From positions 31,060,177 to 31,124,176 of the forward strand of contig CM053331.1 of the NCBI GenBank assembly GCA_028583605.1: a stretch of DNA of 64,000 nt. Direction: 5' to 3'. The notes beneath the pieces are model-generated. The model searched no databases and was not told the origin of the DNA. It worked only from the letters and a program-made list of their open reading frames with translations. The DNA is from Dastarcus helophoroides (Eukaryota; Arthropoda; Insecta; Coleoptera; Bothrideridae). Numbering within the stretch: position 1 is the stretch's first letter; each line of letters opens with the position of its first letter. A program made the translations under genes and the position numbers. Positions 15,858-57,671 of the stretch are shown here, piece after piece.

Positions 15858-18176
15858 TATTTTAACTTAATTCTGAAAATTTCGACTTTTTTCAAAATTT
15901 TAATGTTTTGAATATCCCAAATTTCTCAGAATTCTGTCTTATTTGGTTGGTTTAGATTTGTTTGAACATTTTACTTTTATAACTTTTGTTCTTGTTAGAG
16001 ATTTTATTTTTTGAAAATTTCAATTTTTTTTAAATATTTGCAATTGATCTCGAAGTTTAAATGTTTGACCTTATTTTTGTAATATCAGAAACTTCAGAGT
16101 CAAAATTTCATCTTCTTTTTGCAAATCTAACTTATTTTAAATTCTAATTTAGCAAAACATTTCAATTCTTTTTAAAAATTTGAATTTCTTCAAAGTTTTA
16201 ACTTTTTGCAAATATCGACTCCGAGTGTTTTTTTTATTCAACTTTTTTTTAATGTTTACCTTTTCGCAAAATTCAAACTTTCTAAAAATGATTACTTTTT
16301 GAAAAGTCTGCCTTCGATTTTCATTGAAAATTCTTAAACATTTCTCGATTTCTTTAAAGCATTTCGCCTTTATATTTTGAAAACTTTGAAATTCAAATGT
16401 ACTTTTTTTGGCTTCCACTTTTTTAAAATGTTTATTTATTTTATTATTCGTAAGAATTTTTTAGTTTAACATTTCTGTAGGATTTTAATTTATTTTCCAA
16501 ATTCTGAGTTTTTTTGAAAATCTTTACACATAATTTCGATCTTTTCTCCAAATTGTTATTTTTTTTTCAAAATTTTGATTTATTTTGTAAATTTAATAAT
16601 GTTTAGTTGAAAAACTGACTTTTAAAAACTTTTACCCTGTTTTTATAAATTTTTGACCTTGGTTCAACTTTTGACAACTTCTCAAAGCTTTGATCTTTTT
16701 GAAAACTGAGATTTCTTTTTAAATTTCAAATTTTTTTTAAGGTTTCGGTTTTTATGTAGTAAACTAAACTTTTATTTAAAAAAATAGATTTTCATTTAAT
16801 GTCTTTTTTTTGAAAAATTAAATTTTTCTTAAAATTTCGACATTTTTAATATTTTCAAACCTTTTCCACAGTTTAGACTTTTTTTGAAAATTTTAACCTT
16901 TGATCATCAAAATTTCGATTTTTGCTTGAAGCTGTAACTCTTTCAAAATGTGATTTTTTTGAAAAATTTCTACTTTTTAAAATTTTGTATTTTTTATAAT
17001 ATGATTATGTTGAAATATTTTTTTTCGAAACCTTTACCTTTTTTTTGAAAATTTGCACCTTAGGTCAATCTTTTTACTATTTCTCGAAGTTTTAATTACT
17101 TTTTTTGAAAATTCCGACTTTTTCTCGAAAATTTTCACTTATTTTAAAATTGCAACTTTTTGAAATATTTTAATATTTTCAGGATTTAAATCTTTTTTGA
17201 AAATTTTTACTTTTTATCATCAAAATTGGGACTTTTTTCGAAGCTAAATATAGCTTCATTCAAAATGTGCATTATTTTCGAAATTTCCATGTTTAATTTC
17301 AAAAGTTCGAGTTTTCGCGATAACTTCGACATTATTTTAAAATTCGCCCGTTCTAGAAATTTTTTTAATTTTCCTGAAGAATCTTATTTTCCAAATTACC
17401 AATTTTTAAATTTTAAACGAATTCTACAAAACGATTGTTTAAATTCGGAACAATCTGAAAAAACAAATCGCAGCTTCGAGGCTAAAGTCGAAATTTAAAA
17501 ACAAAAAGTTAAATATAGCGTAAACAAAACTAGATAAATATTGGAAGTTTAAATTAGGTATTTTCTAACATGTTTCAAGTTTACCCTTAAAATATCGACC
17601 TCAATTTCAAGATCCCGTCTTTAAATTGGAATATAAATGTTGTATTTTTCTCTAGAAATGTTGACTTTCTAGGAAAAATTAGAAATGGCGAGATTTTGTC
17701 GAAAATTTTGAGAAAAAGAGCCAAATCCATGAATTTTGGAAAGTTTTCTGAAGTCGGCATCGTAAAAAATTATTAGAATTTGAAACTTCGAGAAAAAAAT
17801 TGGCAGATTGAAATCAAAGTAAAATTTGAAGGAAAAAATTTAAGAAATCTAAAAATTTATATTAATAACTTCAAAACAAGAGAAGTGTTACATTATAAAA
17901 GGGAAAATATTAGTTTGAGAAAAAAAACAAATTTTGAGTGGATATTCTGAAGAAAGAGTTGAAATTTTCGAAAAAAATCGAATTTGCGAATAAAATTGCC
18001 AGGAAACTGAGCTTCAATGAGAATGACTTCACTGCTTGAGTCCATATTTACAATAGCACATAAAATTTTCATTTTAAACTTGAAATTTTACAAAAAGAAA
18101 AGAAATATTTTGAGAAAAAAGTCCAAATTTCAAAAGAGAGCCGAACATTTTGAAAAAAATATTCAAGTTATACAAC
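15858..18176. repeat. tandem 2.3-kb unit, copy B
   Basis: Nearly identical to copy C over most of its length at an offset of 2319 bases. A stretch that includes 16149-16418 matches 18468-18737 with no difference in its translation. It shows the same switch from T-rich to A-rich strand composition near its last third. Reading frames inside give low-complexity K/F/N-rich peptides and are not genes. Confidence 0.88.
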
Positions 18177-20480
18177 TATTTTAACTTAATTCTGAAAATT
18201 TCGACTTTTTTCAAAATTTTAATGTTTTGAATATCCCAAATTTCTCAGAATTCTGTCTTATTTGGTTGGTTTAGATTTGTTTGAACATTTTACTTTTATA
18301 ACTTTTGTTCTTGTTAGAGATTTTATTTTTTGAAAATTTCAATTTTTTTTAAATATTTGCAATTGATCTCGAAGTTTAAATGTTTGACCTTATTTTTGTA
18401 ATATCAGAAACTTCAGAGTCAAAATTTCATCTTCTTTTTGCAAATCTAACTTATTTTAAATTCTAATTTAGCAAAACATTTCAATTCTTTTTAAAAATTT
18501 GAATTTCTTCAAAGTTTTAACTTTTTGCAAATATCGACTCCGAGTGTTTTTTTTATTCAACTTTTTTTTAATGTTTACCTTTTCGCAAAATTCAAACTTT
18601 CTAAAAATGATTACTTTTTGAAAAGTCTGCCTTCGATTTTCATTGAAAATTCTTAAACATTTCTCGATTTCTTTAAAGCATTTCGCCTTTATATTTTGAA
18701 AACTTTGAAATTCAAATGTACTTTTTTTGGCTTCCACTTTTTTAAAATGTTTATTTATTTTATTATTCGTAAGAATTTTTTAGTTTAACATTTCTGTAGG
18801 ATTTTAATTTATTTTCCAAATTCTGAGTTTTTTTGAAAATCTTTACACATAATTTCGATCTTTTCTCCAAATAGTTATTTTTTTTTTCAAAATTTTGATT
18901 TATTTTGTAAATTTAATAATGTTTAGTTAAAAACTGACTTTTAAAAACTTTTACCCTGTTTTTATAAATTTTTGACCTTGGTTCAACTTTTGACAACTTC
19001 TCAAAGCTTTGATCTTTTTGAAAACTGAGATTTCTTTTTAAATTTCAAATTTTTTTTGAGGTTTCGGCTTTTATGTAGTAAACTAAACTTTTATTTAAAA
19101 AAATAGATATTCATTTAATGTCTTTTTTTTTAAATTAAATTTTTCTTAAAATTTCGACATTTTTAATATTTTCAAACCTTTTCCACAATTTAGTTTTTTT
19201 TGAAAATTTTAACCTTTGATCATCAAAATTTCGATTTTTTCTCGAAGCTGTAAGTCTTTCAAAATGTGATTTTTTTTGAAAAATTTCTCCTTTTTAAAAT
19301 TTTGTAATTTTTTATAATATGATTATGTTGGAATATTTTTTTTACCTTCTTTTTTTGAAAATTTGCACCTTAAGTCAAACTTTTTACTATTTCTCGAAGT
19401 TTTAATTACTTATTTTGAAAATTCCGACTTTTTCCTCGAAAATTTTCACTTATTTTAAAATTGCAACTTTTTGAAATATTTTAATATTTTCAGGATTTAA
19501 ATCTTTTTTGAAAATTTTTACTTTTTATCATCAAAATTGGGACTTTTTTCGAAGCTAAATATAGCTTCATTCAAAATGTGCATTTTTTTCGAAATTTCCA
19601 TGTTTAATTTCAAAAGTTCGAGTTTTCGCGATGTTTTAAAATTCGCCCGTTCTAGAAATTTTTTAATTTTCCTGAAGAATCTTATTTTCCAAATTACCAA
19701 TTTTTTAATTTTAAACGAATTCTACAAAACGATTGTTTAAATTCGGAACAATCTGAAAAAACAAATCGCAGCTTCGAGGCTAAAGTCGAAATTTAAAAAC
19801 AAAAAGTTAAATATAGCGTAAACCAAACTAGATAAAATTGGAAGGTATCTTCTAACATGTTTCAAGTTTACCCTTAAAATATCGACCTTCAATTTCAAGA
19901 TTCCGTCTTTAAACTTGGAATAATGTTGTATTTTTCTCTAGAAATATGACTTGAAATTTTCAATTTCTAGGAAAAATTAGAAATGGCGAGATTTTGTCGA
20001 AAATTTTGAGAAAAAGAGCCAAATCCATGAATTTTGGAAAGTTTTCTGAAGTCGGCATCGTAAAAAATTATTAGAATTTGAAACTTCGAGAAAAAAATTG
20101 GCAGATTGAAATCAAAGTAAAATTTGAAGGAAAAAATTTAAGAAATCTAAAAATTTATATTAATAACTTCAAAACAAGAGAAGTGTTACATTATAAAAGG
20201 GAAAATATTAGTTTGAGAAAAAAAACAAATTTTGAGTGGATATTCTGAAGAAAGAGTTGAAATTTTCGAAAAAAATCGAATTTGCGAATAAAATTGCCAG
20301 GAAACTGAGCTTCAATATGAAGGACTTCAGTACTTGAGTCCATATTTACAATAGCACATAAAATTTTCATTTTAAACTCAAAATTTTAGGAAAAGAAAAG
20401 AAGTATTTCGAGAAAAAAGTCCAAATCTCAAAAAAGAGCCGAAAATTAAAAAAAAGGATATTCAAGTTATACAACTAAAA
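18177..20480. repeat. tandem 2.3-kb unit, copy C
   Basis: Third copy of the unit. It diverges from B mainly by small deletions near 19200-19350 and 19630, and ends where B would run into the next unit (TATACAACTA near 20473). The block closes soon after with the CGGTTT-rich right border. Confidence 0.88.
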
Positions 20481-20849
20481 ATTCAATTTGGCTTGAAATT
20501 TTGATAATAAAATCAACATTTTCTTTGAAAGGGTGGACATTGTAAGTTTCTAATTGAATCTTTAAAAAATGTTCTTCAAAGTAAACTCGCAATTTTGAGA
20601 TGAAAGTTGCATGAGTTTGTGTAAAATTTTGAAAGGGAAATGTCAAAATCCCAAACTTTAGGGTAAAGTAAAATTATTTTAAGAACATACAAATTCAACA
20701 AACCGAAAAAAACAGTTATTTTTTTTCGGTTCTGTTCCGGTTTTCCTTCCTACAAAAATAACGGTTTTTTTCGGTTTCCGGTTTCGGTTCAGTTAAGTTT
20801 CGAAGCCCTGGTTTAAATAATTAAAAACTGCTCACAAATATTGCAATGT

Positions 20850-21150
20850 CAATTAGGTTTAAACATTTATCAGACTGAGAGTGTGGAAATTAAAGGCTGG
20901 TTTCGATCTTATTAGATCTCGTCAGTTTGGTATAGCCAACTCGAGTATCGACAAATGTTCCAGCAATTGGATATTGTAGAGTCACAAGAATCTATTAGTC
21001 TGTGCATTAAAATCTTGTATTCTAGGATCTTCCTAGAGAGCAACCGTTTTGCTAGGCATTTGTGTTTCAACCGTCGGCATTTCAGCTACGTATAATTCAC
21101 TATACATGTTTAGAGGGCTGCATACTGTAGTCTAGGTTGCATTCTATTTG
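20850..21150. repeat. retrozyme-like repeat, decayed copy 1
   Basis: Contains family landmarks in order: a decayed hammerhead (20889-20931, minus), then GTCTGTGCATTAAAATC, GAGAGCAACCG, GGGCTGCATACTG and GTAGTCTAGGTTGCATTC. It lies in the Beat intron about 250 bases beyond the 3' border of the middle exon. Confidence 0.7.
20889..20931 (-). ncRNA. hammerhead ribozyme, decayed copy
   Basis: Minus strand reads ACCAAA, CUGACGA, stem II GAUCU-AAUA-AGAUC, then GAAACC. The other half of stem III is AGC instead of GGU, and the 3' strand of stem I is UUUAAU instead of UUUGGU. The catalytic 5' half is intact but stems I and III are broken, so activity is unlikely. Confidence 0.6.
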
Positions 21151-21402
21151 TATATTCAACAATAGAAAAAATATTTTGACATACACATTCTCATTAAAAT
21201 TTTAATTTCCTTTTTAAATATTTTTTCAAAGCAGGTCTGCAAAACAGCTAGTAAAAATCTAATTAATTTTATTATTATGCGACAAATAGTCTCCCCTTAA
21301 TTATTTCAATCAAAAAATCAGATCAAATGATGATGGAAATACATGACACACACAGCATACCATCGAAAAATGTTGGGGTTTGAAGTAGGGTGGTCCACTC
21401 AC

Positions 21403-21628
21403 CAAGTAGAAGGGCTTCCCTCATATCCTTGATGGGTAAACTTTGAACTATACTTTCACGATCTCCTCGCCAAAGCACAGGAGACATGGAAGCCACGCAT
21501 TTCACTCTCATCGAACCTCCGAGGAAGTGACGACTACTCAAAGTGAAGCGGAGACCCAATGTCGATGATTCCAGCCCATGCCGGTAGCGAGTGATTGGAT
21601 GTTTGATTAAAGCTATAGGACTGACGAC
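21403..21628 (-). CDS. Beaten path-family protein, exon for the second half of Ig-like domain 2
   Basis: On the minus strand the acceptor TTTTGTTGCAG ends at 21629 and the donor is CTTG then GTGAGT at 21402. The 226-base exon encodes 75 residues in phase 0 plus one base of a split codon. Visible Beat-family features are the GLESSTLGLRF motif (residues 19-29), HFLGGSMRVKCVAS with the second Ig-domain cysteine (residues 34-47), an LW pair, and ESIVQ, ending REALLL. In this family these follow the WYIN segment encoded by the preceding exon, and here they join it exactly. Beat proteins are cell-surface or secreted Ig-family ligands that bind Side receptors and control motor-axon defasciculation and neuronal matching. 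No stop or frameshift is seen. Which Beat paralogue it is cannot be decided here. Confidence 0.88.
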
Positions 21629-21924
21629 CTGCAACAAAATTTTGATTTTTAGGGTGCATTTAGATTAAACACTTTATTCTGTACCTTTCTCTCTGACATA
21701 TGGCAAGTGTCAACTATCCTGAGAGATGCAAGTAGAATGCAAGCTAGACTACAAATTGATGCAGCTCTCCAGGCGTGTATAGTGAAACATAGGTAGCTGA
21801 ACTACCAACAATTGAAACCGCCGACCTAGCGAAGCGGTTGCTCTCTAGGAAAAAGTTCCCAGAAGAAAGGATTCTAATGCACACACCAACAGGTTTGAAC
21901 ATTTATTAGATTCGAAGTTTGGAA

Positions 21925-21967
21925 ACCAAACACCGGTTTCAGTCTTGTTAGATCTCGTCAGTTTGGT
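21925..21967 (-). ncRNA. hammerhead ribozyme, decayed inverted partner
   Basis: Minus strand keeps ACCAAA/UUUGGU for stem I, CUGACGA, GAAACC and GGU. Position 17 is G, which is not a cleavable NUH site. The 3' half of stem II reads AGACU instead of AGAUC, so the two pairs nearest the core are a wobble and a mismatch. Probably inactive. Confidence 0.65.
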
Positions 21968-21998
21968 CGGAACATTTGATACCATTCAAGTTGAATAC

Positions 21999-22041
21999 AC
22001 CAAACTGACGAGATCTAACAAGATCGAAACCGGTATTTGGT
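21999..22041 (+). ncRNA. hammerhead ribozyme, type I, consensus-perfect copy
   Basis: All hammerhead core positions are present in order. Stem I 5' strand ACCAAA is at 21999-22004. The core CUGACGA is at 22005-22011. Stem II GAUCU, loop AACA, then AGAUC (22012-22025) gives five perfect pairs starting with G10.1-C11.1. G12-A13-A14 are at 22026-22028. Stem III ACC/GGU is at 22029-22034. The cleavage base A17 is at 22035, and stem I 3' strand UUUGGU (22036-22041) pairs all six bases with 21999-22004. Cleavage would fall between 22035 and 22036 (GUA site). Stem III is the palindrome ACCGGU with no loop; short stem III hammerheads in newts, schistosomes and metazoan retrozymes are known to work poorly alone and better as dimers. 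Confidence 0.88.
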
Positions 22042-22239
22042 CTCCAAACTTCGAATCTAATAAATGTTCAAACCTATTGGTCTGTGCATTAGTATCCTGA
22101 GAGAAGTTATGTGAGACTTATCCACACAGCTCGAAAAACGAAGCCTCCCTAGTTGACACTTATGTCAGTAAAAAAAATATTTTATGTCATAGAGAAAAAA
22201 TATACGAAATAAAGTGTCCAACGTAAACGCACCGTTAGG

Positions 22240-23970: not shown

Positions 23971-24894
23971 AATAAATATTTTTTTTAATTTCGAATTTTG
24001 ATAAAAATTTCGGCTTTTTTTCAAATACTCTCGTTAAAATTAAAAAGATTTAGTGAATTCTGAAAATTGTTACCACGTTCTCAAAATTTCGGCCATAATC
24101 TACAAATTTCAATTTTTCCAGAAATGTTAATTTTGAAATTAAAATTTCGTATTTTCTTTTCAGAATTTGGCACTTTTTTTCTTAAAATTTTACATTTGGT
24201 CCCAAAATTCGGAGTTTAAGTCTACAGTTTATTCTATTTATCGATTTAAATTCGATTTTTTGCAATTCTCGAAGTTTTTTCCAAATGTAGACTTTTTTCT
24301 CAAATTTCTCATTTTAAATTAAATGTCTTTACTCTTCCTTTAAACATTTACCATTTTTTTAAATAAATAATATAATCTGCAAATTTCTAGAAATTTTAAA
24401 CTTACAAATCAAAATTTAATTTTTTTCTACAATTTTTGAATACTTTATAATTGTTCAGGATTTCATTACGATTTATTATCATTGAGTTTTGTTCGAAATT
24501 TTGACCCTTTTTCAATATATTTTAATTTTGCAGGCTTTCATCACGATTTATTATCATTGATTGACTTTCTCGCGAAATGTAGACTTCCTTTCCAACTACA
24601 TTTAAAAAGTGTTTTTTCAAAAATTTTAACGTTACAATGGATTTTTTGACTTTTTTTAACATTTCTGCTACAAATTCCGTATTTTGCATTTTTTTCTAGA
24701 AAGCAGTTTGAAAGCCGAAATTTCAAGTAAAATATAGAATAGGGGATTAATGTTGAAATTTAGAGAGTACAGTTAACATGGTGACTTATTTTCCAAAATT
24801 CCTGATTTAAACTTTTAATTTTTGCACCCCCAAAATTTTATACTTTTTCTGAATATTTTGACTTTTTTTAAAGAACCTTATTCTTTAATGCACT

Positions 24895-25145
24895 AGCCAA
24901 TCGGTTTAGAGATTTATTGATTTGAAGCTTGGAAACCAAAGACCGGTTTCGATCTTGTCATTTTGGTACATCCACCTCTGTACAACAGAATCCTTGTCTT
25001 CTAGGGACTTTCCTAGAAAGCAACCGCTTTGCTAAGTGGCAGTGTTTCAACTGTTGGTAGTTCAGAGCTTTCTAAGATTCACTGCTGCCTAGAGGGCTGT
25101 ATGAAATTGCAGTTCAGGTTGTATTCCACTTGCATACAATCCTAT
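24895..25145. repeat. retrozyme-like repeat, decayed copy 3
   Basis: Family landmarks in order: a deleted hammerhead (24935-24967, minus), ATCCTTGTCTTCTAGGGAC, GAAAGCAACCGCTTTGC, TTTCAACTGTTGGTAGTTCAG, GGGCTG and CAGGTTGTATTCCACTTGCA. It sits inside the T-rich block. Confidence 0.7.
24935..24967 (-). ncRNA. hammerhead ribozyme remnant with internal deletion
   Basis: Stem I (ACCAAA with UUUGGU), GAAACC, GGU and a cleavable C17 remain. About ten bases covering the end of the core and the 5' half of stem II are deleted, so it cannot fold as a hammerhead. Confidence 0.6.
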
Positions 25146-27479: not shown

Positions 27480-28373
27480 TATTCTTTTTTAAACGCAGTT
27501 TAAAAATCATTAAATATGTTTTAAAGAACAGATAGCCCTGTTTATCTCTTTAAATCATAAATGTGTTTATCTGGGAGGACTTCTGTTTACCGATATCTTG
27601 TAAGCACAAATTGTCCCAGGAAACCGATTCAAATAGCAAGATCTAAGAGCTTCCTAATCAGTCACATTGTTAATCTAGTACAAAGCAAAACTACGTCAAA
27701 TATACTGTAATCTAACTGCGGTTTGCCAGGATTGCATCGCTATCAAAACAAAATCCTGACTAATAATGTTTGCAAATGCTGCAATAGGAAAACACTTTAG
27801 AGCGTATTTTTAGAATAATTGTCTTTAAACTGGAAAGTGTAGTATTTTATAATCATAAAGTGGTTATGCTTATTATAATAAAAGGCAGACTACTTATTAA
27901 AAACCAAAATTTTTTTTTTATCCTAACTGTTCTCGTGAAGATAGATCGGTTGAACATTCGCATGAAATCGCTTAAAGTTGCCAAAGACAAATTTTTAAGA
28001 AATTTTTAAATAAATATCCTCTTTAAATTAAAACAGAAAGTAAAAATTAAGCACTCAGAAAGCCTATTAAGTGTATAAGGAAATATGGAAATTAATATCT
28101 TACATAACAGAGGAATGAGATGAACAGCTAAATTTCTACATACTGCTGATTGATTGAAAATGTTTGGTTTCTTATAAAAGGATGCAAATTAACTAAACTT
28201 GTCATAAGCGTACCTATCTACACTACTAAAACTTGTAAAATAAACTTCAAAAAGTAACGTTTCAATTTGAAGCAAACTACTTCAGAATTTTAATGGAAAA
28301 GGTATGGACTACATCTTATCGAACGCGATATAAGTGATTGACTGGGTTTTATTTGTGTCGCTATTGAACGTAC
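27480..28373. other. intron of the Beat-family gene, no other feature
   Basis: Ordinary sequence leading up to the donor at 28373. Nothing else recognised. Confidence 0.5.
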
Positions 28374-28507
28374 CTGTTGTTCGTTAATGTACCAGTGAAG
28401 TGCCGATGCTGGATAGCTCTTCCCTGAAGTGCAGTTTAAATTTATCTCATCCCCTATTTGATATTGCGGCTCGACGCCAGTTATCACTGGATCATCCTCT
28501 GGTAAAG
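28374..28507 (-). CDS. Beaten path-family protein, exon for the first half of Ig-like domain 2
   Basis: On the minus strand the acceptor TTTTGTTTCAG ends at 28508 and the donor CAG then GTACGT begins at 28373. The 134-base exon has two bases completing a split codon, then 44 residues. It begins LPEDDPVITG and continues through GDEINLNC, TSGKSYPASALHWYIN and EQQ. P-x-I-T/S-G, G-D-x-(I/V)-x-(L/V)-N-C-T-S and the L-x-W-Y-I-N segment are the signature of the second Ig domain of Beat proteins: the first disulfide cysteine and the core tryptophan are both present. NCT is a potential N-glycosylation site. The exon ends in phase 0 and joins 21628 without interruption across a 6745-base intron. The upstream exon must end with one base of a codon. 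Confidence 0.9.
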
Positions 28508-29028
28508 CTGAAACAAAATATTTACTTTGTTAATAGTAATGCTAATGCTAATCCACCTTGCACTGGTGAGTTTTGTTGTTTTGATATTAATCCTATTGTG
28601 GATTACAACCGGGAACTGCAATTTATGTCAATTTGTTGTTTGAAGTAAGCAAGCAAGTAATGGCGATGGAAGTTTACTGTTTGATTTGACACAATAACAT
28701 TTTTCTTCACCTCTTTTGTTTTAGAGAATATCATAATTAGAAATTTTATTATGGAATTCTGCCAAGGGATAGAAAGATGGATAGAAAAAAAAAAATCCTG
28801 AAAGTCTGTAACTTAAAAGGTTCCACAAATAATTTAAATTTTAGAATTTTTCATCTACTGTTACATATATATATATATATATATAAATATGTAAAATAAT
28901 ATTTTACATTTGCTTTTATTCTCTAGTACATCAGACAAACTTTTCGAAAGACATATTTAAAATATAATCCGTTTCCCGTGGAGCCAAATGTTTAGCTTAA
29001 AATAGCTTTAGCTATTTTTTTTAAATAC
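28508..29028. other. upstream intron of the Beat-family gene
   Basis: Ordinary sequence containing a (TA)n run at 28865-28885. The preceding Ig1 exon was not found in or beyond this stretch. Confidence 0.45.
28865..28885. repeat. (TA)n microsatellite
   Basis: About ten uninterrupted TA units. Confidence 0.9.
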
Positions 29029-34215: not shown

Positions 34216-35639
34216 ATTTAGTCACAAGATTCAGCTAAAACCTTTACACATGCACATATCAGTGATATTTGAGAAGTCAGCTGGCAGAGTGTTTAGGTAA
34301 AAATTTTCATTAATAATAACCACGGTTTAAGAAAGCTTGGAAAAAACAAAAAAAAGTTTCTTCGACCTTTCAAAAGGGAGACAAATCGGACCAAAAACAC
34401 TAAAACATTACATGTGGCCACTGATAGCAACAAATGGTTTACGACTTCTTAGGTCGTAACGAGTGCAAGGCGATAAGCGACTGATTACCGCGCTGTTACC
34501 CACTTGGCATGTACAGTGATAAGGCAGGCTTAGCAAAGTAAATAAATTAATGTGCAATAAATTCTTACGTAATTATTTGGCCGCACAATTATTTCTATTT
34601 TCATATACTTTGATCTAATATGAAAATTATTGTATATCTTTGGTTTCATTATTAAAGCGGTGTAACGAAAAGGTAAACAAATTCTAAAACACAATGAAAT
34701 TAAAATTTGATTAAAATTCCACCAAACAAAAGTAATGATACAATGCATCCACAAAATCAATGGTCAATGCTCAAACAAGCAGTTATTTAATTTGGGAGCA
34801 TATTAAACATTGATCAGTTGTTAGGTATTTGTCTATGAAAAATGTGTCAACGATGGAATTTTTTAACAAAACACAACAGATCTCACAAAAGTTGTAGTGC
34901 ATTCACAGGAATATTAATTGCCTCTTTTTAAAACTATTTGGGAGTTGTAGGGTCTATAAGGAAAATATGTTTTGTCGGTAGATAACACATGATTTAAAAA
35001 CTGTCAGTTAGCTTGAGAGACTGCCTCAAAGATTCCCAAAATTTAAAACGTTTGTTATGATAATCAAAAAATATATCTTGAGTATTAGCCAGTTTATTGC
35101 ATTCGCACCCATTTATTTTTAAATTTTGCAGGGTTGGCGTTAAGCTTCTTCTAAAATCTGTTCCCACCGATTTTCATGCAAAAAAAGCAAATCGTCCACT
35201 GACATTTATGGCAAGCTCAGGGACAATCATTTAATGACGTGTATATTTTTATCTTTCAGGCATAACCTAAGAAACGTTTTGTTTCTCCCAATTCCCGATT
35301 GCTCACCTGTCGCATTTTTCTTCTTATTTGGCGATGTCGAAGGCGTTTGGTCTCAGTAACCACCCAAGAATTGGTCTAAACTGTTATTTTAATATTTGTT
35401 TTATATTTTTATTATTATTTTTTTAGTGTAAACATAAATATGCCTGAAATTTTAATGACACATTCGTGTGATATATTCATTTTTAAAGTGATGTTTCTTC
35501 AGGTGCGTTGAGTGACTAAAGATAGCGAAAAAACGGATGGGGTTGCCTTACCAACAACGCTAATTTAAGCTATTGACATGCTCTAATGTCTAGTAGACAC
35601 ATGTACCCATGAATAAATCCCGACGTGAACCAAAAAAAC

Positions 35640-35716
35640 GCGAGATTGGCAGCGAGGTTCGAATCTCGAACCCGTCACGCCCAAAGAAATTGCTCCACCA
35701 GTGTGCCACGGTCGCT
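35640..35716 (-). repeat. tRNA-like SINE head (pol III A and B boxes), copy 1
   Basis: On the minus strand GCGACCGTGGCACACTGG is followed by GGAGCAATTTC, then GACGGGTTCGAGATTCGAAC. The A-box-like TGGCACACTGG and the B-box-like GGTTCGAGATTC are about 40 bases apart, as in tRNA genes. No full cloverleaf can be drawn, so this is a tRNA-derived SINE fragment or tRNA pseudogene rather than a functional tRNA. Confidence 0.5.
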
Positions 35717-36486
35717 TGTTGATTTAAAAGCTAAACTTGCCTGAGAATCTAACCCCACCTCTGAAGTTAAATTAAATCTGCAAAAATGTCTATATTATAA
35801 TTGTCTAAATTGTGTTTTAGTATGATTATTAATATTTCCATTCTGTTCCTAAGCGAAAGCAAATGAAAGAAAGAAAAAACGCTGGCAAATTGCCGATGGC
35901 CGTCAATTTGAAAGACGGATGCAAGATTAAAATCGGCGTAATAAAGATATGCTTTACACAACGCACATAATTCGCCTGCGCATTGCCAACAATTTAGACA
36001 GAGTGACAGGAATTAGTAACATCTGGTTAAGCGTTTGGCGATGCTGTTATATTTTAAATGACATTTCCTAAAACCTTTAATAAATATTTTAATTTGGGTA
36101 ATATTATAACACTCACAGTTAAAAGTTTTAACTTTTGTGCTTTTAGAACTCAGGTATTTCTTGTAAAATATGAAATAGAGTATATCTTTGTTATTATAAA
36201 ATGAGTGTCACTAAAACACTGAACTAAACACTGTGGCTTGTGATTAAGTCCAAGAAGGTTTCACCCAGTATCGATTTGAATCTCAATGCAGATGACGTCG
36301 ATGCATCTGTTGCTAATCTTTTTAGATTAGTACGCTTATAAATGCCAGTTCTGCTGGCGAAATACCTATCGCGTAATTATTTATTTAATTGCCGATGTGG
36401 TAAAGGGGTGAAACCTTCTTGGACATAAAATGAGAGATTTAACTGGGGAATAATTGTAATGAATACATTGGATAATATCACGATAG

Positions 36487-36682
36487 ATAAAAAACACGAC
36501 AAACGTTGCTTTAATGCGTTTCGACAGCCAAGCTGTCAGAGAGATATCTTTCTTAGGATGACTGCTTGGCTGTCGAAACACGTTAGAGCAACGTTTGTCG
36601 TGTTTTCTAATCTTTCTTGTTTTCAGGGGACAAGTTCTCTATTTCAATTTCTGAAGATAACCAAGGACCAGTCCGTTCCAGC
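36487..36682. repeat. foldback repeat family 1 copy (in duplication copy 1)
   Basis: Inverted arms AAAAACACGACAAACGTTGC and GCAACGTTTGTCGTGTTTTC surround a shortened centre. The stem-loop GACAGCCAAGCTGTC is perfect in the left arm, but both hammerhead-like cores are mutated. The right end is GACCAGTCCGTTCC. It is at the same site in both duplication copies, so it was inserted before the duplication. Confidence 0.8.
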
Positions 36683-37170
36683 AAGCGATAAGTAAACGGA
36701 AAGATTAGGATAACACCAGGATCTAGGCTAGCTAGTATTAAACGCCTGTCACCTGAGTTTAATTTAAGTGATATAAACCTTTAAGTGTGTACTCCGCAGA
36801 TATCAAAATATATATAAGCGTTTTAGATTAGTTCCAGAACAATTAAATTACTTTATATTGAATAGGATCAGGAAAAATTTTATTACCGTTATTTCCTTTT
36901 AAGTTTTCACTTCTGTTGGCGGTCCACATGACTGCCTCATTTTGATTTCTAATAATTACTTATATAACATAGACGTTCTGTATAATTTGCGTATGAAAAA
37001 AAAATGTATATTATTACAAAAGGATAATCTTAATAGAAAGCAACACGTATTGCTTTCAGTCAGACTTGACGTGAAAAATGTCGGTTTAAAATCCAATCAG
37101 AAACCATCTACAGCAACTTACGTATCGCTCTGAGACAGAAGATATTTCATGCCTGTCGATAAAGAGAGGA

Positions 37171-37416
37171 ATGCATCACAAATTTTTCAGGGCTGGAGAG
37201 ATAGATTTTTCGCAGAATAGACACAGACGGAACATGTGTAATAACTTTCATAGCATTTATAGGAAGGAAGCAACAAATAAAACGTTCTTCCATCTTTTTA
37301 TCACCCACACTTCACCGGATTCGAAGTCTGCAGTAAAAATGTTTGTTAGGTTTCCACGAACGAGCCAAAGTTTATTTTTAACTGCAACACGGCTATCGGA
37401 AAACTTAGTAAACTAG
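37171..37416 (+). other. 81-codon open frame of unknown status (copy 1)
   Basis: Open from ATG to TAG and preserved, with two amino-acid differences, at 43683-43928. It has no recognisable domain. Because the whole surrounding DNA is nearly identical between the two copies, conservation of this frame is not evidence of coding; it may be a remnant of a mobile element. Not claimed as a gene. Confidence 0.2.
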
Positions 37417-37699
37417 AAGATTTCAGTTTAATGTCAATTTATTGCACATTAGAAGCTTAGTTTGATAAACTGGTAAAATATTTTGTTTGTCGTTTTGTAA
37501 GAATATTTCTATCATAAAACGAAATAGATATATCATCGTTTTTATAGGGCCTGTAGTTCATTTGGATACTGAAATAGAAATCGCTAAACTGAGACACATA
37601 AACAAAATATTAAAATATGATAACGAAGGCTTCCACGGCCAGAGTTGGTACAGGATAAACTTCTTCCGTGATTGGACTGTGTCAAAGAACTACTAAAAG

Positions 37700-37744
37700 T
37701 GTTCGACGTTTCGCCCACCATCGTAGGGGGCTTCTTCAGGAACA
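37700..37744 (-). ncRNA. hammerhead ribozyme, Penelope-like-element type, best copy
   Basis: Minus strand from 37744: stem I 5' strand UGUUC, then CUGAAGA (37739-37733), one extra A, then stem II beginning GCCC and closing GGGC (37731-37713). GAA follows, then stem III AC/GU with no loop, C17 (37705), and GAACA (37704-37700). GAACA pairs all five bases with UGUUC. Core nucleotides C3, U4, G5, A6, G8, A9, G12, A13, A14, A15.1, U16.1 and a cleavable C17 are all present. The extra A before stem II is the one departure from the simplest consensus. Stem II has four closing pairs, one mismatch and one more pair. Hammerheads with GAAACGUC are characteristic of Penelope-like elements. Confidence 0.78.
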
Positions 37745-37779
37745 AAGAAAAGAAAACAATAAATAAAAAGGGGAAATAT

Positions 37780-37935
37780 AAGAAGATTCTCTTTGATGAT
37801 ATTTCAATTATATCCAATATTCCCAATTACTATAATAGAAACATACGCGAGGCCATTGAAATCCAAAAATTCCCCAAAAATATCAACAGATACGACGGTT
37901 ACATGCTTTCCTCCATCGGAAATCTTCGGGAGTGA
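37780..37935 (+). pseudogene. C-terminal fragment of a Penelope-like element protein (GIY-YIG end)
   Basis: The translation contains NYYNRNIREAIEIQK, then NINRYDGYMLS, ending NLRE and the stop TGA (37933-37935). This resembles the extreme C-terminus of PLE proteins, where the GIY-YIG nuclease region ends with a conserved R-x-x-(R/K)E-A-I-E-I segment followed by N-x-x-x-G-Y-x-L-S. Only about 50 residues remain; the reverse transcriptase and nuclease core are gone, and the open frame upstream runs into ribozyme-containing non-coding DNA. Not functional. It links the adjacent hammerhead to a PLE. Confidence rests on motif recall, not on a search. Confidence 0.6.
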
Positions 37936-37980
37936 TCGCGCAGACGAATGGTATATAAAGTTTCCCTTTCCCTCTTTCCT

Positions 37981-38108
37981 CTCAGAAGAGTTTCGCCACT
38001 GGTATGGTGGACATACTGATTTACCGTGCTCTTCTGTCTAAACTTTCTTATCCTTTGTACCAATTTTCAATTCAGAAGAGTTTTGCCTCTGGTATGGTGG
38101 ACATGCTG
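37981..38108. repeat. 90-bp tandem dimer, copy in PLE remnant 1
   Basis: CAGAAGAGTTTCGCC near 37983 recurs as CAGAAGAGTTTTGCC near 38073, and GGTATGGTGG at 38001 recurs at 38091: an exact 90-base period. The same dimer occurs near 44323 and 59518. Confidence 0.85.
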
Positions 38109-40742: not shown

Positions 40743-42162
40743 GTCACATTTATTTAAAATTCAAGCCTCAGCTAAAACCTTTACACATTCACATATCAAT
40801 GATATTTGAGAAGTCAGCTGGCAGAGTGTTTAAGTAAAAATTTTCATTAATAATAACCACGGTTTGAGAAAGCCTGGAAAAAGCAAAAAAAGTTTCTTCG
40901 ACCTTTGAAAAGGGAGACAAATCGGACCAAAAACACTAAAACATTACATGTGGCCACTGACAGCAACAAATGGTTTACGACTTCTTAGGTCGTCACGAGT
41001 GCAAGGCGATAAGTGACTGATTACCGCGTTGTTACCCACTTGGCAGGAACAGTGATAAGGCAGGGTTAGCAAAGAAATAAATAATTGTGCACGAAATTTT
41101 TAGAAAATTATTTTGCCGCACAATTATTTCTATTTTCATATACTTTGATTTAATATGAAAATAATTGCATCCACTGTATATCTTTGGTTTCATTAATTAA
41201 GTGGCGTAACGAAAAGAGAAACAAATTTTAAAACACAATGAAAGGAAAATTTGATAAAATTCCACTAAAAATAAATAACAAAATCAATGTTTAATGCTCA
41301 GACAATCAGTTTATTTAATTTGGGAGCATATTAAATATTTATCGGTTGTTAGGTATTTGTCTATAAAAATGTGTCAACGATGGAATTTTCTAACAAAACC
41401 CAACAGAGCCCACACAAGTTGCAGTGTATGTGTAGGCATATTAAGCCCCACTTTTTAAAACAATTTGGGAGTTGTAGGGTCTATAAAAAAAGATGTTTTG
41501 TCGGTAGATAACACATGGTTTAAAAACTGTCAGTTAACATGAGAGACCGCCTCAAAGATTTTCAAAATTTAGAACGTTTGTAATGATCATCAAAAAATAT
41601 CTCTTGAGTATTAGCCAGTTTATTAAAGTCGCACCCATTTCTTTTTAAATTTTGATCTATTGGCGTTAGGCTTCTTCTAAAATCTTTCACCAGCGACTTT
41701 CATGCAAAAAAAGCAAATCAGCCACTGACATTTCCGACAAGCTCAGGGAGAATCATTCAATGACTTGCATATTTTCATCTTTCAGACATAACCTAAGCAA
41801 CCTTTTCTTTCTACTAATTCCCGATTGCTCACCTGTCGCATTTTTTTTCTTATTTAGCGATGTCGAAGGGACTTGGTGCCAGTAACCACCCAAGAATTGG
41901 TCCAAATTATGATTTTAATTTTTGTTTTATATTTCTATTATTATTTTTTTGCGTAAACATAAATATACCTGAAATTTCAATACCATATTTGTGTGATATA
42001 TTCATTTTTGAAGTGACGTTTCTTCTGGTGCGTTAATTGACTAAAGATAGGGAAAAATTGAATAGTTTCACCTTAGCAATAACACTAATTTGAACTATGG
42101 CATACTCTAATGTCTAGTAGACACATATATTCATGAATAAATCCCGACATGAACCTAAAAAA

Positions 42163-42228
42163 CGCGAGATTTGCAGCGAGGTTCGAATCTCGAACCCGTC
42201 ACGCCCAAACCAGTGTGCCACGGTCGCT
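42163..42228 (-). repeat. tRNA-like SINE head, copy 2 (internally deleted)
   Basis: Same sequence as at 35640-35716. A deletion of about 14 bases between the A-box-like and B-box-like parts has removed AAATTGCTCCACC-equivalent bases. Confidence 0.5.
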
Positions 42229-42987
42229 TGTTGATTTGAAAGCTAAAATTGCCTGAGAATCTAACCCCACCTCTTAAGTTAAATTAAATATGCGAAAATG
42301 TCTATATTCTAATTATCTAAGTTGTGTTTTAATGTGACAATTAATATTTCTACTATCTGCCTAAGCAAAAGCTTAAAAGAAAAAAACGCTGGCAAATAAC
42401 AGGTAGCCGTCAATTTGAAAGACGAATGCGAGATTAAAATCGGCGTAATAAAAATATGCTTTACACGACGCACATAATTCGCCTGCGCATTGCCAACAAT
42501 TTAGACAGTGTGACAGGAATTAGTAACATCTGGTTAAGCTTTTGGTGATGCTGTTATATTTTGAATGACATTTCTTAAAATCTTAAATAATTATTTTGAT
42601 TTCGGTAATATTATAACACAGTTAAATGTTTTAACTTTTGTGCTTTTATGACTCAGGTATTTCTTGTAAAATATGAAATAGAGTATATCTTTGTTATTAT
42701 AAAATGAGAGTCACTAAAGCACTGAACTAAACACTGCGGCTTGTGATTAAGTCCAAGAAGGTTTCACTCAGTATCGATTTGAATCTCAATGCAGGTGACA
42801 TCGATGCATCTGTTGCTAATCTTTTTAGATTGGTATGCTTGAAAATGCCAGTTCTGCTGGCGAGATACGTGTCGCGTAATTATTTATTTAATTGCCGATG
42901 TGGTAAAGGGATGAAACCTCCTTGGACATAAAATGAGAGATTTAACTGGGGAATAATTGTAATGAATACATTGGATAATAACACGAT

Positions 42988-43189
42988 AAATAAAAAACAC
43001 GACAAACGTTGCTCTAACGCGTTTTGACAGCCAAGCTGTCATCTTCAGAAAGATATCTTTCTGAAGATGACAGTGTGGATGTCGAAACACGTTAGAGCAA
43101 CGTTTGTCGTGTTTTCTAACTTTCTTGTTTTCAGGGGAAAAGTTCTCTATTTCAATTTTTGAAGATAACCAAGGACCAGTCCGTTCCAG
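42988..43189. repeat. foldback repeat family 1 copy (in duplication copy 2)
   Basis: Complete palindrome. In the right arm CTGAAGA (43061-43067) is followed by TGACAG, a loop, GTC, GAAAC and ACGTTAGAGC. The left arm has the perfect stem GACAGC/GCTGTC, but its conserved GAA is AAA. The hammerhead-like core is therefore recognisable but imperfect in both arms. Confidence 0.82.
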
Positions 43190-44585: not shown

Positions 44586-44639
44586 CTTTTAGTAGTTTTT
44601 TGACACGGTGCAATCCCGTAAGAAGTATAAAATATTAAA

Positions 44640-50344: not shown

Positions 50345-50741
50345 TTAACAATGTCATATGCAAGTATGCAACCTTAACTACAAATTCATGCAGCATTCCA
50401 GGCGTTTATAGTGAATAGGTAGCTGAACTACCAACAGTTGAAACACTACCATCTAGCGAAACGGTTGCCCTCTAGGAAAGTTCCCAGAAGACGGAGTCTA
50501 ATGTACAGACCAATAGGTTTGAACATTTATTAGATTCGAAGTTTGGAAACCAAATACCTGTTTCGATATTGTTAGATCTCGTCAGTTTGGTATATCCAAC
50601 TCGAATGTTAACAAATGTTCTGACAAGTAAGTACTAAAGAATTCACGGACGTCAAACGTGTGACTTCGCAGGACTACCGCCACCTATTGGCCCCTAGAAA
50701 AACTATAGCCACTGCCAACAAGTCGTATTCAAGTAGAATAC
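50345..50741. repeat. retrozyme-like monomer 1 (about 371 bp) with hammerhead
   Basis: ACCTTAACTACAAATTCATG at 50371 recurs in altered form as ACCTAGACTACAAACTCGTC at 50742, giving a period of 371 bases. The monomer holds TAGTGAATAGGTAGCTGAAC, CTAGCGAAACGGTTGC, a hammerhead on the minus strand (50549-50591), TGTTCTGACAAGTAAGTAC and CTACCGCCACCTATTGG. It has no reading frame. Tandem non-coding monomers of this size, each with a type I hammerhead, are the pattern described for metazoan retrozymes. Confidence 0.78.
50549..50591 (-). ncRNA. hammerhead ribozyme, near-intact copy
   Basis: Stem I ACCAAA with UUUGGU is perfect. CUGACGA, GAA, A15.1, U16.1 and a cleavable A17 are present. Stem II is GAUCU with AUAUC, giving one C-U mismatch in five pairs. 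Stem III is AC/GU with AG as the turn. Confidence 0.75.
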
Positions 50742-51088
50742 AACCTAGACTACAAACTCGTCCAGCTCTCTAGGCGTTTATAATGAATCATAAGTAGCTG
50801 AACTACCAACACTTGAAATACTGCTACCTAGCGAAGCGGTTGCTCTCTAGGAAAGTCCCAGAAGACAAGGATTCTAATGCACAGACATGTTTCCAAACTT
50901 CGAATCTAATGAATGTTCAAACCTATTGGTCTATGCATTAGAATCCTTGTTTTCTGGGAACTTCCTAGGAGCAACCGCTTCGCTAGGTGGCACCGTTTCA
51001 ATTGGTCGTAGTTCAGCTACCTATGATTCACTATAAACGTCTGGAGGGCTGCATAAATTTGTAGTCGAGGTTGTATTCTACTTGAAAA
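50742..51088. repeat. retrozyme-like monomer 2, rearranged into a palindrome
   Basis: Begins as a second monomer, but near 50896 the ribozyme segment is missing and the sequence turns back through GTTTCCAAACTTCGAATC and CCTATTGGTCTATGCATTAG. It returns through GCAACCGCTTCGCTAGGTGG to GAGGTTGTATTCTACTTG, the inverse of the opening CAAGTAGAATACAACCT. Confidence 0.75.
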
Positions 51089-53630
51089 CTACGTTAGTCA
51101 AGTTGCAACCTTTATTTAAAGCGTTCGGCTTAAAAAAACTATGTATTTTTCTACTCTGGGAGTTACCACATCAAACAGCACACTACAAATATTTTTCGAT
51201 CCAAGTTACGATGGCCGCACCCTTTGCGAAGAATAATATACAATTGCAACCAAGTTATTTATAACTTAGGTAATTAAAGTAAGTTTTATGCTTGCATTAT
51301 GGGTTGAGTACAAGCAACTTCGGCCCAAATGCGATTTGGTATGTCACAAACCCAAAAATTCAGATCAAAATTTTGTTTGATATTTTAGGTTAAAATTTGA
51401 AATTGCGCATTTAAAAATCCTATTTCAATTTTATATTTAAAATATAAGAAAAAATGAGTAAGTATATTCAGTTTACCTTTGACTATATCCTCAGTTATTG
51501 TAAATTCCGTTTTCGAAGAAGTTTGAGTTGAAATCAAATTCTTCCTAATTATTCAGTAGCCTCGAGTACTTTGAATATTCTACGACAATAAGTTCAGAAT
51601 GAAAATTGTAGTGTAGACTTGTGAGAGCATCCACCTTTCGTACGCCCACCTCGTAATTTTCTAGTTAAAATGGTGTATAATTTTAATACATGATGAAATG
51701 AAACGATAAAATCTAAGGTAAGAGCCAACATTAAATTATTATTATCACCCTAGCTCTTATTAACCGGTCAAATGGAGGGTTGGCCTAACATTCGATACAA
51801 ATTTAATCATTACGTAGTGATGTTATCAGCAACGTTCCATCTATATTTAGAGAATCAATTTTCGTGCTGAATTTATCAAGAATATTGAATAAAATTGTAC
51901 CTTTCAATTAGGTGCCAATTTGGCTTCCTTTGCAGTATATAATTCTTTCATAACGTCTCTTCTGCCCTTAATTCCTACAGTCAATATTTACTTCTCTGAT
52001 AATTAAAGCAAGGAACAACGATATCGCCATGGGTTTAGTCTCATCTCAGTAGAAAATCTGCTTTTGTCAGTTTTCTGATTTACTCGAAACTTGTAACAGT
52101 GGTCCAACAATCGGCCCGAACAAGAAGTATTTCTAAACAAACAGCACCAAGTTAGGAACTTTTCGTTCTAACTTTATTACCATTGGATGCATCCACCTAA
52201 CTTCGGTCCGAAAGTTCGGTTTATTTCTAAACATTTCCAACGCTCCAATACACAAGGAGAACTAAGGACGTTAACGTTGCACGGCTGCACGGATAAATCT
52301 TTGCCATGTCACAGAGACATCCTTGAAATGTTTTAGTTCGGTTGGTGAGAAAATTTAAAATGCACATCCGACATTCTCGGGCGCAAAAACTGTCCCTTTT
52401 CGTTTTTCTTTGGGGTTTCTTTTGTCAACAGAACGAACAAGCAACGTGAATCTTTTAGACTTGTGTTTCTAGACTGGAATACACTTTCCTTCTAAATAAT
52501 GGAAAACTAACTCTACTTCTTGACATTTAACGTATTGTAATATAATTTGCGTTACTCACGTTCTTGTCTGCGTAGATTTCACGTAAGGAAATTTTTAGTT
52601 ATTGTAAGAACCTTTTACTACTTCACTACTTTATGAGAGGAAATAAATAACAAATGAAATGAATGACAGAAAGTTGAGTACCAACCATTTGATGTCCTAA
52701 AATTTTCTTTCTATTCGTTTACCTGTTACATACCACTGACACAGTAATGATTTGCTCTACATAGCTCGACCAACTGATGTAAACGCGTGACATTTTTCCA
52801 GTGCCAAGCATACTACATAATAACAATTTTAAATAAATAACGAATGTTATCACTATTTAGAGACAGAATTCCCTTTTCGAAAATTCCCTCAGCATAAATT
52901 AAAATACTTTCAGAGTAGTAAACTGGTCATCGCAGATGAGAACTTGATAAAACCTCGAATAGAAACACAGTCCGTAAGCCATTTTAATCCCCTAAGCTCG
53001 CACTCGATACGAATCTGATAAATTTGCAAATATACAAAGCGGATATTGTGTTTGGAATGGAAGGAGTGTTTTTGCGTCGATTTCGACAAAAAGTCGTAGG
53101 TTTTTTTGGCATCTAACAAGTTTTAAGCTAAAATTTATCCGTTGAATAAAGTAATCAATTTTCCGGATGGTCTACTTTACCAAACATATAAAAGCGGCCC
53201 CTGGGTAACATAAATACGCGAGCCTTTAATTTTAAATTAACCATAAAACTCCGACGCATTCATAATGGTTTTCTATTATTATTCGGGACTATTTGTTGAT
53301 TTATATGTCGTGATCTAATCATGTTATTTGTTTTATAGAACCTTATGCATAAGAAATAAAAAGTAATCGTTGTTTAAACCAAAGTTGCACATCCCCTGTC
53401 TTGGCGTTAACGTTGATGTGTATAATAATTGGTACACCTGCGGTTGCAAAATGGGTCGGTACAGATATGTTTGTAGATATTTTGCGCTTTGGTTCTTCTT
53501 CTTATGTTGCATCTCCTATCGGAGGTTTGCTATCATCACAGCTATTTTAATCTTGTTAACTGCAGCTCGGAATAGCTGGTTGTTGCTGCTTTACATTTTC
53601 CCAATTGCAAAAAAAACTTAAAATGTAAGA
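51089..53630. other. ordinary non-coding DNA, no gene recognised
   Basis: Mixed composition, free of low-complexity texture and of recognised repeats. Open frames on both strands show no domain. Parts with higher G+C (about 52.0-52.5 kb and 53.35-53.6 kb) could hold conserved non-coding DNA or an unrecognised short exon. Confidence 0.4.
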
Positions 53631-56819: not shown

Positions 56820-57204
56820 AAAAATTTCAATATTTAAAAAACTGAAAAATGTTCCAGAAAAGGTTATAATTTAAAAAAAATGAGATTCTTAGAATATGAG
56901 GCAGTGAAAAAAAGGCCAAAATTTTGTAACAGGTTCGAAATTTTTAGAAGAGGTCGAAACTTTGAAAAATTTGAACTTAAAAAATTACAGCAATTGTTAA
57001 AACAACGAACATTTTTAGAAAAGGCCACAAAAAAATGAAAATTCTGAAAAAAATTAGATATATTAAAATGTCTGCGTTGCAAAGAAGTCGAGATTTTTAG
57101 TTCAAACACGTGAAATTTTTTTTCAAAGTCACTTTTTTTAAATTCGAAGTTTCTACAAAAATCTAATCAATAAATATTTCAAAATTTTCAACAAAAGTAA
57201 AAAC

Positions 57205-57482
57205 TCATGCGCAGACCAATAGGTTTGAACATTTATTAGATTCGAGGTTTGGAAACCAAAGACCGGTTTTAGTCTTGTTAGATCTCGTAAGTTTGGTATA
57301 TCAAACTCGAATGCTAACAAATGTTCTGACAAGTAAGTACTTAAGAATTCGCAGATCTCAAGCGTGTGACTCTCAGTACTACCGCCACCTATTGTTTCAT
57401 AGAGAAACTATGGCCATCGCCAACAGTGTCGTATGCAAGTAGAATACAACTCAGACTGCAGTCTAGGTTGTGTCCTACTTGC
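57205..57482. repeat. retrozyme-like repeat, decayed copy
   Basis: GCGCAGACCAATAGGTTTGA, a decayed hammerhead, TGTTCTGACAAGTAAGTAC, CTACCGCCACCTATTG, then a terminal hairpin: CAAGTAGAATACAACTCAGA turning at CTGCAG into TCTAGGTTGTGTCCTACTTG. Confidence 0.78.
57255..57297 (-). ncRNA. hammerhead ribozyme, decayed copy
   Basis: Stem I is perfect and C17 cleavable, but the core reads CUUACGA (G5 lost) and GAA is AAA. Stem II 3' half is AGACU. Inactive. Confidence 0.62.
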
Positions 57483-57671
57483 AAAAAAAATATTCAAAAA
57501 GAAAAAATATTTAACAAATTTTAAATATTTCAAAAAGAACCAAATGTTTGGAAAAAAAATCTTAATTATTACTAAAAAAATCCGAATTTCGAAAAAGAAG
57601 TCAAGAATAATCTAAAATATGAAGTGAGTCCCAAAAAGCAATTGAAAATTTAGTCCCAAAAAGCAATTGAA

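Follow-up and report, generated by a model that had tools for sequence, protein, structure and literature searches.

The hammerhead ribozyme at positions 21999–22041 of the window (the whole 64-kb stretch of Dastarcus helophoroides DNA that was analysed) belongs to a dispersed family of short elements, most examined insertions of which consist of two opposed arms joined head-to-head with two fixed and unlike 3′ ends. By its sequence, the family looks like an animal retrozyme, a non-autonomous retroelement. We favour, at a probability of roughly 70%, a retrozyme-type element whose multimers would be cut by the ribozyme and whose insertions would be primed on both target strands at two sites, with a Penelope-like element (PLE) as the likely source of the enzyme. 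The original prediction had described an intronic ribozyme; the motif is real, but its membership in a mobile family with inverted insertions had been missed. Coordinates of the features are collected in Table 1.

Table 1 Features of the window that bear on the hammerhead and its family
Feature	Position	Strand	Remarks
Type I hammerhead core with stems Ia, II and III	21999..22041	+	Expected cleavage after 22035
Hammerhead including stem I internal loop and stem Ib	21987..22058	+	Rfam HH9 match; fold of 21988–22058
Opposite-strand hammerhead copy of the left arm	21925..21967	− (sense strand of the Beat-type gene)	G17, one stem II mismatch
Focal insertion, head-to-head, 366 bp	21727..22092		Left arm and right arm of the retrozyme unit
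Left target-site duplication TATCCTGAGAGA	21715..21726		Perfect, 12 bp
Right target-site duplication TATCCTGAGAGA	22093..22104		Perfect, 12 bp
MITE-like element hosting the insertion	21653..22233		36-bp terminal inverted repeats, 75% complementary
Second, older copy, head-to-head	20854..21154	− 20854–20961, + 20989–21154	Ribozyme damaged
Third copy, head-to-head	24886..25137		Ribozyme core deleted
Fourth copy, about 1.4 tandem units (−), then inverted part (+)	50347..51092	Ribozyme −	Stems II and III weakened
Fifth copy, − arm with degraded ribozyme and inverted micro-arm	57204..57483		Micro-arm 25–27 nt (57457–57483)
Open frame with upstream Beat exon	28290..28529	−	Best PDB match Beaten path Vc (9nsf, E 1.3e-6)
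Open frame with downstream exon, read as Beat-type	21323..21664	−	Unnamed beetle homologs

The focal hammerhead, its predicted fold and its host site

Read 5′ to 3′, the 43 nt of the core are ACCAAA, CUGACGA, GAUCU, AACA, AGAUC, GAA, ACC, GGU, A and UUUGGU. They give a 6-bp stem I (ACCAAA/UUUGGU), a 5-bp stem II (GAUCU/AGAUC) closed by the loop AACA, and a stem III of ACC/GGU followed by A17, so that every element of the consensus-perfect type I hammerhead that had been proposed was found exactly where it had been placed. The invariant core (CUGANGA ... GAA, the A15.1–U16.1 pair and H at position 17) is present. The architecture had also been called minimal, which is not so: of the three stems, stem I is open, carries an internal loop opposite loop II and runs on past this loop into an outer stem Ib (ATTC-AAGTT/AACTTcGAAT in the focal copy, and at most 9 bp with one bulge in the genomic copies). 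Stem III is the palindrome ACCGGU, with one A–U pair at most beneath a CCGG loop, and supports in general terms the argument for dimeric action; an axolotl hammerhead with such a stem III was cut as a monomer to just 6% in an hour (PMC7229834).

A descriptor of the core and stems found one motif on both strands of the window compared with 8 motifs in 400 first-order random 64-kb sequences (0.02 expected per window), and on this basis a chance match was rejected as the source of the focal hammerhead. A search with Rfam models had been suggested as a check, and its outcome was divided. No match was obtained in the window at the gathering threshold, while the best match at the site was Hammerhead_HH9 (RF02275) with an E value of 3.5e-5 in the 3 kb searched and a score of 31.2 bits, below the curated gathering score of 52; its alignment spans the full 77 positions, with the stem I internal loop and stem Ib included. 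Some miRNA-like Rfam matches at hammerhead sites scored below their own gathering scores, and we read them as long hairpins of the inverted arms. The identical 43-mer recurs in about two dozen further copies in the sampled loci of the same genome, and exact-pattern scans of viral contigs gave 0 matches. Assignment to the retrozyme or newt kind of type I hammerhead, as originally predicted, is supported.

In the focal insertion, the left arm (21727–21967) corresponds to unit positions 377 to 134 on the minus strand and the right arm (about 21967–22092) to unit positions 104 to about 228 on the plus strand; the inverted arms are 93% complementary over 100 bp and are separated by a 31-bp spacer. 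The 12 of 12 matching letters of the two flanking TATCCTGAGAGA copies were equalled by only 0.07% of 3000 random flank pairs. The terminal inverted repeats of the MITE-like host lie at 21653–21688 and 22198–22233, and an empty version of this element with a single TATCCTGAGAGA is found at another locus (L015:1657–1850). Among the sampled loci, the MITE flanks were matched only by L015, L017, L022 and L024 (L045 and L046 repeat the focal and L022 places). The focal, L022 and L024 insertions lie in copies of a single MITE family at the identical TATCCTGAGAGA position and point the same way; their inner junctions differ. A target preference, or simply an abundant target, could account for this.

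The suggested location in a Beat-gene intron held, with the gene read as Beat-type. The upstream frame (28290–28529) has a Pfam C2-set_2 match over the cut-off. The downstream frame (21323–21664) has 27 protein matches, the best named of which is from the firefly Abscondita terminalis (84% identical), with other relatives in Tribolium, Zophobas and further beetles and some labelled CD80-like C2-set; none of the 27 is named Beat, and this frame has no Pfam match and no significant PDB match. On our reading these two frames would be exons of one Beat-type gene, with a splice acceptor TTTTGTTGCAG, read by eye, before the downstream exon near 21630 on the minus strand. Because the exons are on the minus strand and the intact hammerhead is on the plus strand, the ribozyme is antisense to the Beat-type gene, and the Beat-type pre-mRNA would therefore carry only the damaged opposite arm, whose hammerhead is not expected to cleave because of the G at position 17 and the stem II mismatch.

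Folding predictions point the same arms against each other. For the RNA of the whole insertion, the minimum free energy (MFE) was −184.6 kcal/mol versus −133.1 kcal/mol with the hammerhead stems forced, and the predicted pair probabilities of the hammerhead stems were 0.0, the arms pairing with each other instead. A 71-mer (21988–22058) alone was predicted to form 10 of 11 stem Ia and stem II pairs at probabilities of at least 0.81; in its best predicted fold the core ACUG is paired with the stem III CGGU, a pairing that arises because the folding program cannot form a loopless stem III. With the right flank added and the left arm absent (21990–22150), stem Ia pairs were predicted at only 0.05–0.30. 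When one copy was folded as a circle, the MFE was −109.6 versus −85.2 ± 8.8 for 100 first-order random sequences (z −2.8). Within the focal insertion, the sole further copy is antisense, so no dimer can form there in cis. Thus, although the palindrome favours dimers, as had been proposed, self-cleavage is doubtful at this locus, since a sense partner in cis is lacking and the arms pair mutually. The intact focal copy is probably occluded in place, as a fossil antisense insertion rather than an active ribozyme in its own context. This calls for caution more generally, as a consensus-perfect genomic hammerhead may be silenced by its own antisense arm.

Copies in the genome and the form of their insertions

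The window's own assembly (538.9 Mb, 50 contigs) was searched with the focal region (670 candidates, the best 40 of which were scored and gave 87 matches) and, because this first query is itself inverted, with a one-direction query that still required the hammerhead region (397 candidates, the best 40 scored, 44 matches). These first-look candidates suggest hundreds of copies in 539 Mb. The sample comprised 36 fetched regions and 30 loci from the one-direction query, many of them the same places; it consists of the best-scoring rather than random copies and is biased by the head-to-head form of the first query.

The unit is about 377 nt long (369–377 nt; GC 41% in a 369-nt copy) and occurs in tandem runs of 6.7 units (L041), 5.2 units (L030) and 3.4 units (L027). 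Hammerhead-like patterns were matched 79 times in the sampled loci and the window, a number that includes a few unrelated matches and at least one match at a locus edge that entered it twice, and 36 of the matches are strictly intact. An Rfam scan of 12 loci (E up to 0.05) returned HH9 in 24 of 27 rows, 22 of which were in the retrozyme family (best 36.8 bits). Across 29 distinct rows from 35 chosen copies, the stems were kept in 96.9% of cells; covariation was weak, with two-sided change in one pair among the 29 distinct copies, where little variation was available. The type I hammerhead, tandem units within 150–450 bp, GC below 50% and duplications longer than 4 bp are those of retrozymes, and the family is placed with animal retrozymes by the size and tandem repetition of its units, its low GC, its type of hammerhead and the presence of a PLE in the same genome. 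A second hammerhead family was also seen at L018:27–99 (GCACUG CUGACGA GCUC AAAUGA GAGC GAA ACAUC GAUGU C CAGUGC), with an HH9 score of 39.7 bits, above that of the focal family; a decayed copy at L009:3708–3774 scored 27.9 bits.

Within the window, four of the five copies are plainly head-to-head, and the fifth has a micro-arm with 21 of 25 letters matching between the arms. All four non-focal copies have damaged ribozymes. HH9 matched the fourth at 22.7 bits (E 0.007) and did not match the fifth. Besides the focal duplication, the fourth copy has a duplication of 10 of 12 letters, which 3.7% of random pairs reach; the values across the second, third and fifth copies (8, 8 and 6 of 12) are those of chance. 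A 24-bp hairpin at 20700–20777 (arms 96% complementary, 30-nt spacer) adjoins the second copy and has a miRNA-like Rfam match below threshold. Elsewhere in the window, the frames 16149–16460 and 18468–18779 are letter-for-letter repeats about 2.3 kb apart and the frames 17190–17498 and 19501–19740 are nearly identical at the same distance, which together point to a tandem duplication; several frames of about 35144–38200 recur in the same order at 41670–44600, about 6.5 kb away, as a second local duplication.

To describe the insertions, we used the reference unit L027:1882–2258 and searched L009–L074 together with the five places in the window. This gave 83 composite insertions, or 53 distinct ones after 8 near an edge and 22 duplicate places were taken out. 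Simple head-to-head insertions make up 37 of these and double head-to-head insertions 2 (together 39 of 53), along with 13 single insertions and 1 tail-to-tail case, L044, which has one short 82% piece. Loci of the one-direction query gave a similar division (n = 32: 18 head-to-head, 2 double, 12 single and 0 tail-to-tail), in a count that omits 3 truncated composites and takes overlapping loci twice; unlike ends were found in 14 of its 18 head-to-head composites. In 3 of the 13 single insertions there is a possible opposed arm of 9–27 nt ending at site 2 (P = 0.025, 0.06 and 0.225). Arms shorter than about 30 nt escape BLAST, and these three micro-arms were kept out of the counts, which would otherwise be 42 of 53.

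The outer 3′ ends lie mostly at one of two sites about 149 nt apart, site 1 (unit near 228) and site 2 (unit 377/1). Among the 37 simple head-to-head insertions, 30 combine site 1 with site 2, 3 carry the same site at both ends (site 1 in 2 cases, site 2 in 1) and 4 have some other end. Where the ends are cleanest, CTAATGCACAG opens the cDNA at site 1 and TGCAAGTAG at site 2; other starts are displaced by a few bases, and a small number lie elsewhere. Perfect 12/12 duplications flank 16 of the 53 insertions versus 0.04 expected from the flanks of different loci, and duplications of at least 10/12 flank 28 versus 1.83 expected, leaving 25 below 10/12. The perfect ones are 12 bp (10 cases), 13 bp (5) or 14 bp (1) long, and 13 of them belong to simple head-to-head insertions. 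Head-to-head arms with a short duplication, two internal start sites and an extra stretch at one end are the marks of Penelope-type architecture, and all are seen here.

The inner parts of the insertions are more variable. Arms meet with short overlaps or with 1–27 bases of filler, an arm is longer than one unit in 13 of the 37 simple head-to-head insertions, and in 35 of them the two arms have at least 50 unit positions in common. The cleavage site is covered by 65 of the 74 arms, and no excess of cDNA stops was found there (3 of 74 inner ends at unit 165–175 versus about 2 expected, by hand count). Some junctions recur (L012/L016, W2/L014 and those within L031); the counts are therefore not all independent and binomial values are too small. 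We also observed that cDNA 5′ ends cluster upstream of the ribozyme, at unit 98–110 in 16 of 37 site-1 arms and at 109–135 in 15 of 37 site-2 arms, which could be the RNA 5′ end, a structure block or one inherited junction.

Proposed priming of the two target strands and the likely enzyme

In the account that we prefer, tandem genomic copies would be transcribed as multimeric RNA, which the hammerheads, as in published animal retrozymes, would cut into units of about 377 nt that may circularise; the hammerheads probably work in pairs because stem III is a palindrome. The template of insertion would be uncut, multimeric or circular RNA. The 35 of 37 insertions whose arms share at least 50 unit positions cannot come from one pass over a single RNA copy and must have had a circle, a multimer or two RNAs as template; and since most arms cross the cleavage site and inner ends are not gathered there, the templates were mostly uncut at the hammerhead, or rejoined. 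An endonuclease/reverse transcriptase would cut the two target strands about 12 bp apart, each of which would then prime a separate cDNA, from site 1 for one strand and from site 2 for its partner. The two cDNAs would be joined head-to-head, often with short overlaps or filler.

A PLE would be the likely supplier of this enzyme. In the assembly, 91 GIY-YIG matches were found among the best 150 of 1070 candidates scored, all over the cut-off, and the one PLE-like locus examined has a 417-aa frame with RVT_1 and GIY-YIG domains and similarity to 225 proteins. This locus had only short, chance-level sequence matches to the retrozyme unit, and a scan of it for hammerheads found none. The PLE is therefore named by analogy, the one PLE locus compared sharing no unit sequence. 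The unit itself, at 377 nt, is too short for a frame with reverse transcriptase and GIY-YIG domains and would not be an autonomous PLE. Two published studies are in line with it. In rotifers and other animals, inverted pLTRs often form the borders of PLE inserts, mostly in a head-to-head arrangement; duplications measure 8–10 bp in several of these inserts and are missing from others, one end may carry an optional 31-bp tail, and the pLTR sequences are capable of being moved in trans (PMC3846280). In the other study, a purified PLE protein was found to cut and extend the two strands of the target; it began at sites inside the RNA, with the tail between two such sites, and the hammerhead was dispensable in the assay (PMC11167929).

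We tentatively go one step further, at odds slightly under even, to an obligate asymmetric double priming, in which the two target strands would start at two different fixed sites of the retrozyme RNA. This is suggested by the 30 mixed pairs versus 3 equal pairs, and would fit a PLE reverse transcriptase dimer with one subunit per site. In the PLE assay, start sites were alike on the top and bottom strands (PMC11167929), a result that does not predict the unlike pairing of the beetle insertions. If true, such priming would offer evidence from a genome that animal retrozymes are mobilised by PLE machinery, and would account for their inverted copies, through which they also become built-in hairpins.

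Among other explanations, the one that holds up best, though we judge it unlikely, is that a LINE mobilised the retrozyme and that its inverted copies arose by ordinary twin priming. Both mechanisms yield 5′ inversions with duplications, the short overlaps at the junctions are as in twin priming, and in the older copies 20854–21154 and 24886–25137 the two exceptions among the 37 head-to-head insertions, the arms share just 6 and 11 unit positions, the form expected of a single pass. We also read a fragment at 46827–47315 of the window as LINE-type, for which Pfam gave no match among the window frames. In human L1, about a quarter of insertions are inverted, and the share of 39/53 is far above this. 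The insertions with displayed ends have no A-tail between the cDNA start and the duplication, the overlap of at least 50 unit positions in 35 of 37 cases is impossible in one pass over a single RNA copy, and the two fixed start sites resemble the PLE report (PMC11167929).

Slightly less probable is that PLE machinery was at work but that a single cDNA, priming itself on an antisense transcript, gave rise to the head-to-head form. Such self-priming has been offered as the explanation of head-to-head PLE copies with junction palindromes (PMC3846280), and the fifth window copy has such a palindrome. Alone, this would leave unexplained the two different fixed outer ends in 30 of the 33 classed pairs, and both target strands were extended in the PLE assay (PMC11167929). 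We give a little less weight again to the unit being the pLTR of a Penelope-like element, present as truncated or solo remnants, rather than a retrozyme. The head-to-head structure, hammerhead and duplications would all fit PLEs (PMC3846280, PMC11167929), but the copies end at two sites inside the unit and the bare unit occurs in tandem runs; no PLE-like frame was recognised by eye near the sampled copies among the longest 60 frames of at least 110 aa, masked ones skipped; and PLE hammerheads are described as minimal (PMC7229834), unlike the focal one with its stem I internal loop.

Two further ideas were rejected. A foldback element at the DNA level, or a palindromic MITE, with a hammerhead in it by coincidence, would account for closely complementary arms around a short spacer within an element with terminal inverted repeats, but is very improbable, since the outer ends differ (site 1 and site 2) and are not mutual inverted repeats, the outer MITE is known without the insertion and few sampled loci match its flanks. 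Least credible of all is that the ribozyme works within the intron to regulate the Beat-type gene, in the manner of the conserved intron hammerheads of amniotes; its intronic place and best fit to HH9 might suggest this, but the idea fails on the wrong strand, the G17 of the sense copy, the many dispersed copies, the perfect target duplication and the mutual sequestration of the arms.

Comparison with known systems

The beetle family shares with animal non-LTR retrozymes a type I hammerhead, a unit of 150–450 bp, tandem copies, GC below 50%, duplications longer than 4 bp and PLEs in the same genome, and with those of the newt and axolotl type a weak stem III with a palindromic tetraloop (PMC7229834). 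It differs from animal retrozymes in that most of the copies examined consist of opposed head-to-head arms whose two fixed 3′ ends are unlike each other; neither 'inverted' nor 'head-to-head' occurs in the main text of PMC7229834, which reports animal retrozymes from insects in general terms. In the open-access literature, PMC11722881 and PMC8490949 included, we found no account of retrozyme insertions that are head-to-head and end at two fixed unlike sites, and no beetle hammerhead ribozymes in its top-ranked papers; the words insect, beetle and arthropod are absent from PMC3088659 on hammerheads. Plant LTR retrozymes are likewise non-autonomous retroelements with hammerheads, but these are of type III, with LTRs and 4-bp duplications (summarised in PMC7229834). 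In contrast to Rfam RF02275 (Hammerhead_HH9), the focal copy is without a stem III loop and belongs to a dispersed repeat.

Among other hammerhead repeats, the W-elements of Schistosoma mansoni (PMC8490949) also have functional hammerheads, signs of mobility and a presumptive target duplication. According to the available portion of that report, some contain inverted repeats, which flank predicted miRNA or snoRNA parts, and they are satellite-like, unlike the beetle family; 'head-to-head' is absent from its text. The W-elements are the nearest precedent we have seen.

With PLEs, the family has in common head-to-head units, short duplications, an optional 3′ stretch at one end, a hammerhead, two internal start sites and extension of both target strands, the last of which would apply to the beetle family on the both-strand priming account (PMC3846280, PMC11167929). 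It differs in that the 377-nt unit cannot hold a PLE frame, the hammerhead is canonical rather than minimal, the perfect duplications are 12–14 bp rather than 8–10 bp (PMC3846280), and the interval between start sites is about 149 nt, compared with a PLE tail of 30–40 nt. PLEs have been named as strong candidate movers of retrozymes, on the grounds that the two have features in common and occur together (PMC7229834), and LINEs or PLEs were still being given in this role in a 2024 review (PMC11722881). Judged from sequence, the known kind here appears to be the animal non-LTR retrozyme, and what appears new, and is the more valuable part, is the inverted insertion footprint. With its opposed arms, unlike fixed ends, 12-bp duplications and empty site, this footprint would tie a retrozyme to PLE-type internal initiation on both strands, and so bears on which enzyme moves animal retrozymes, a question that can be tested with one RNA and one protein.
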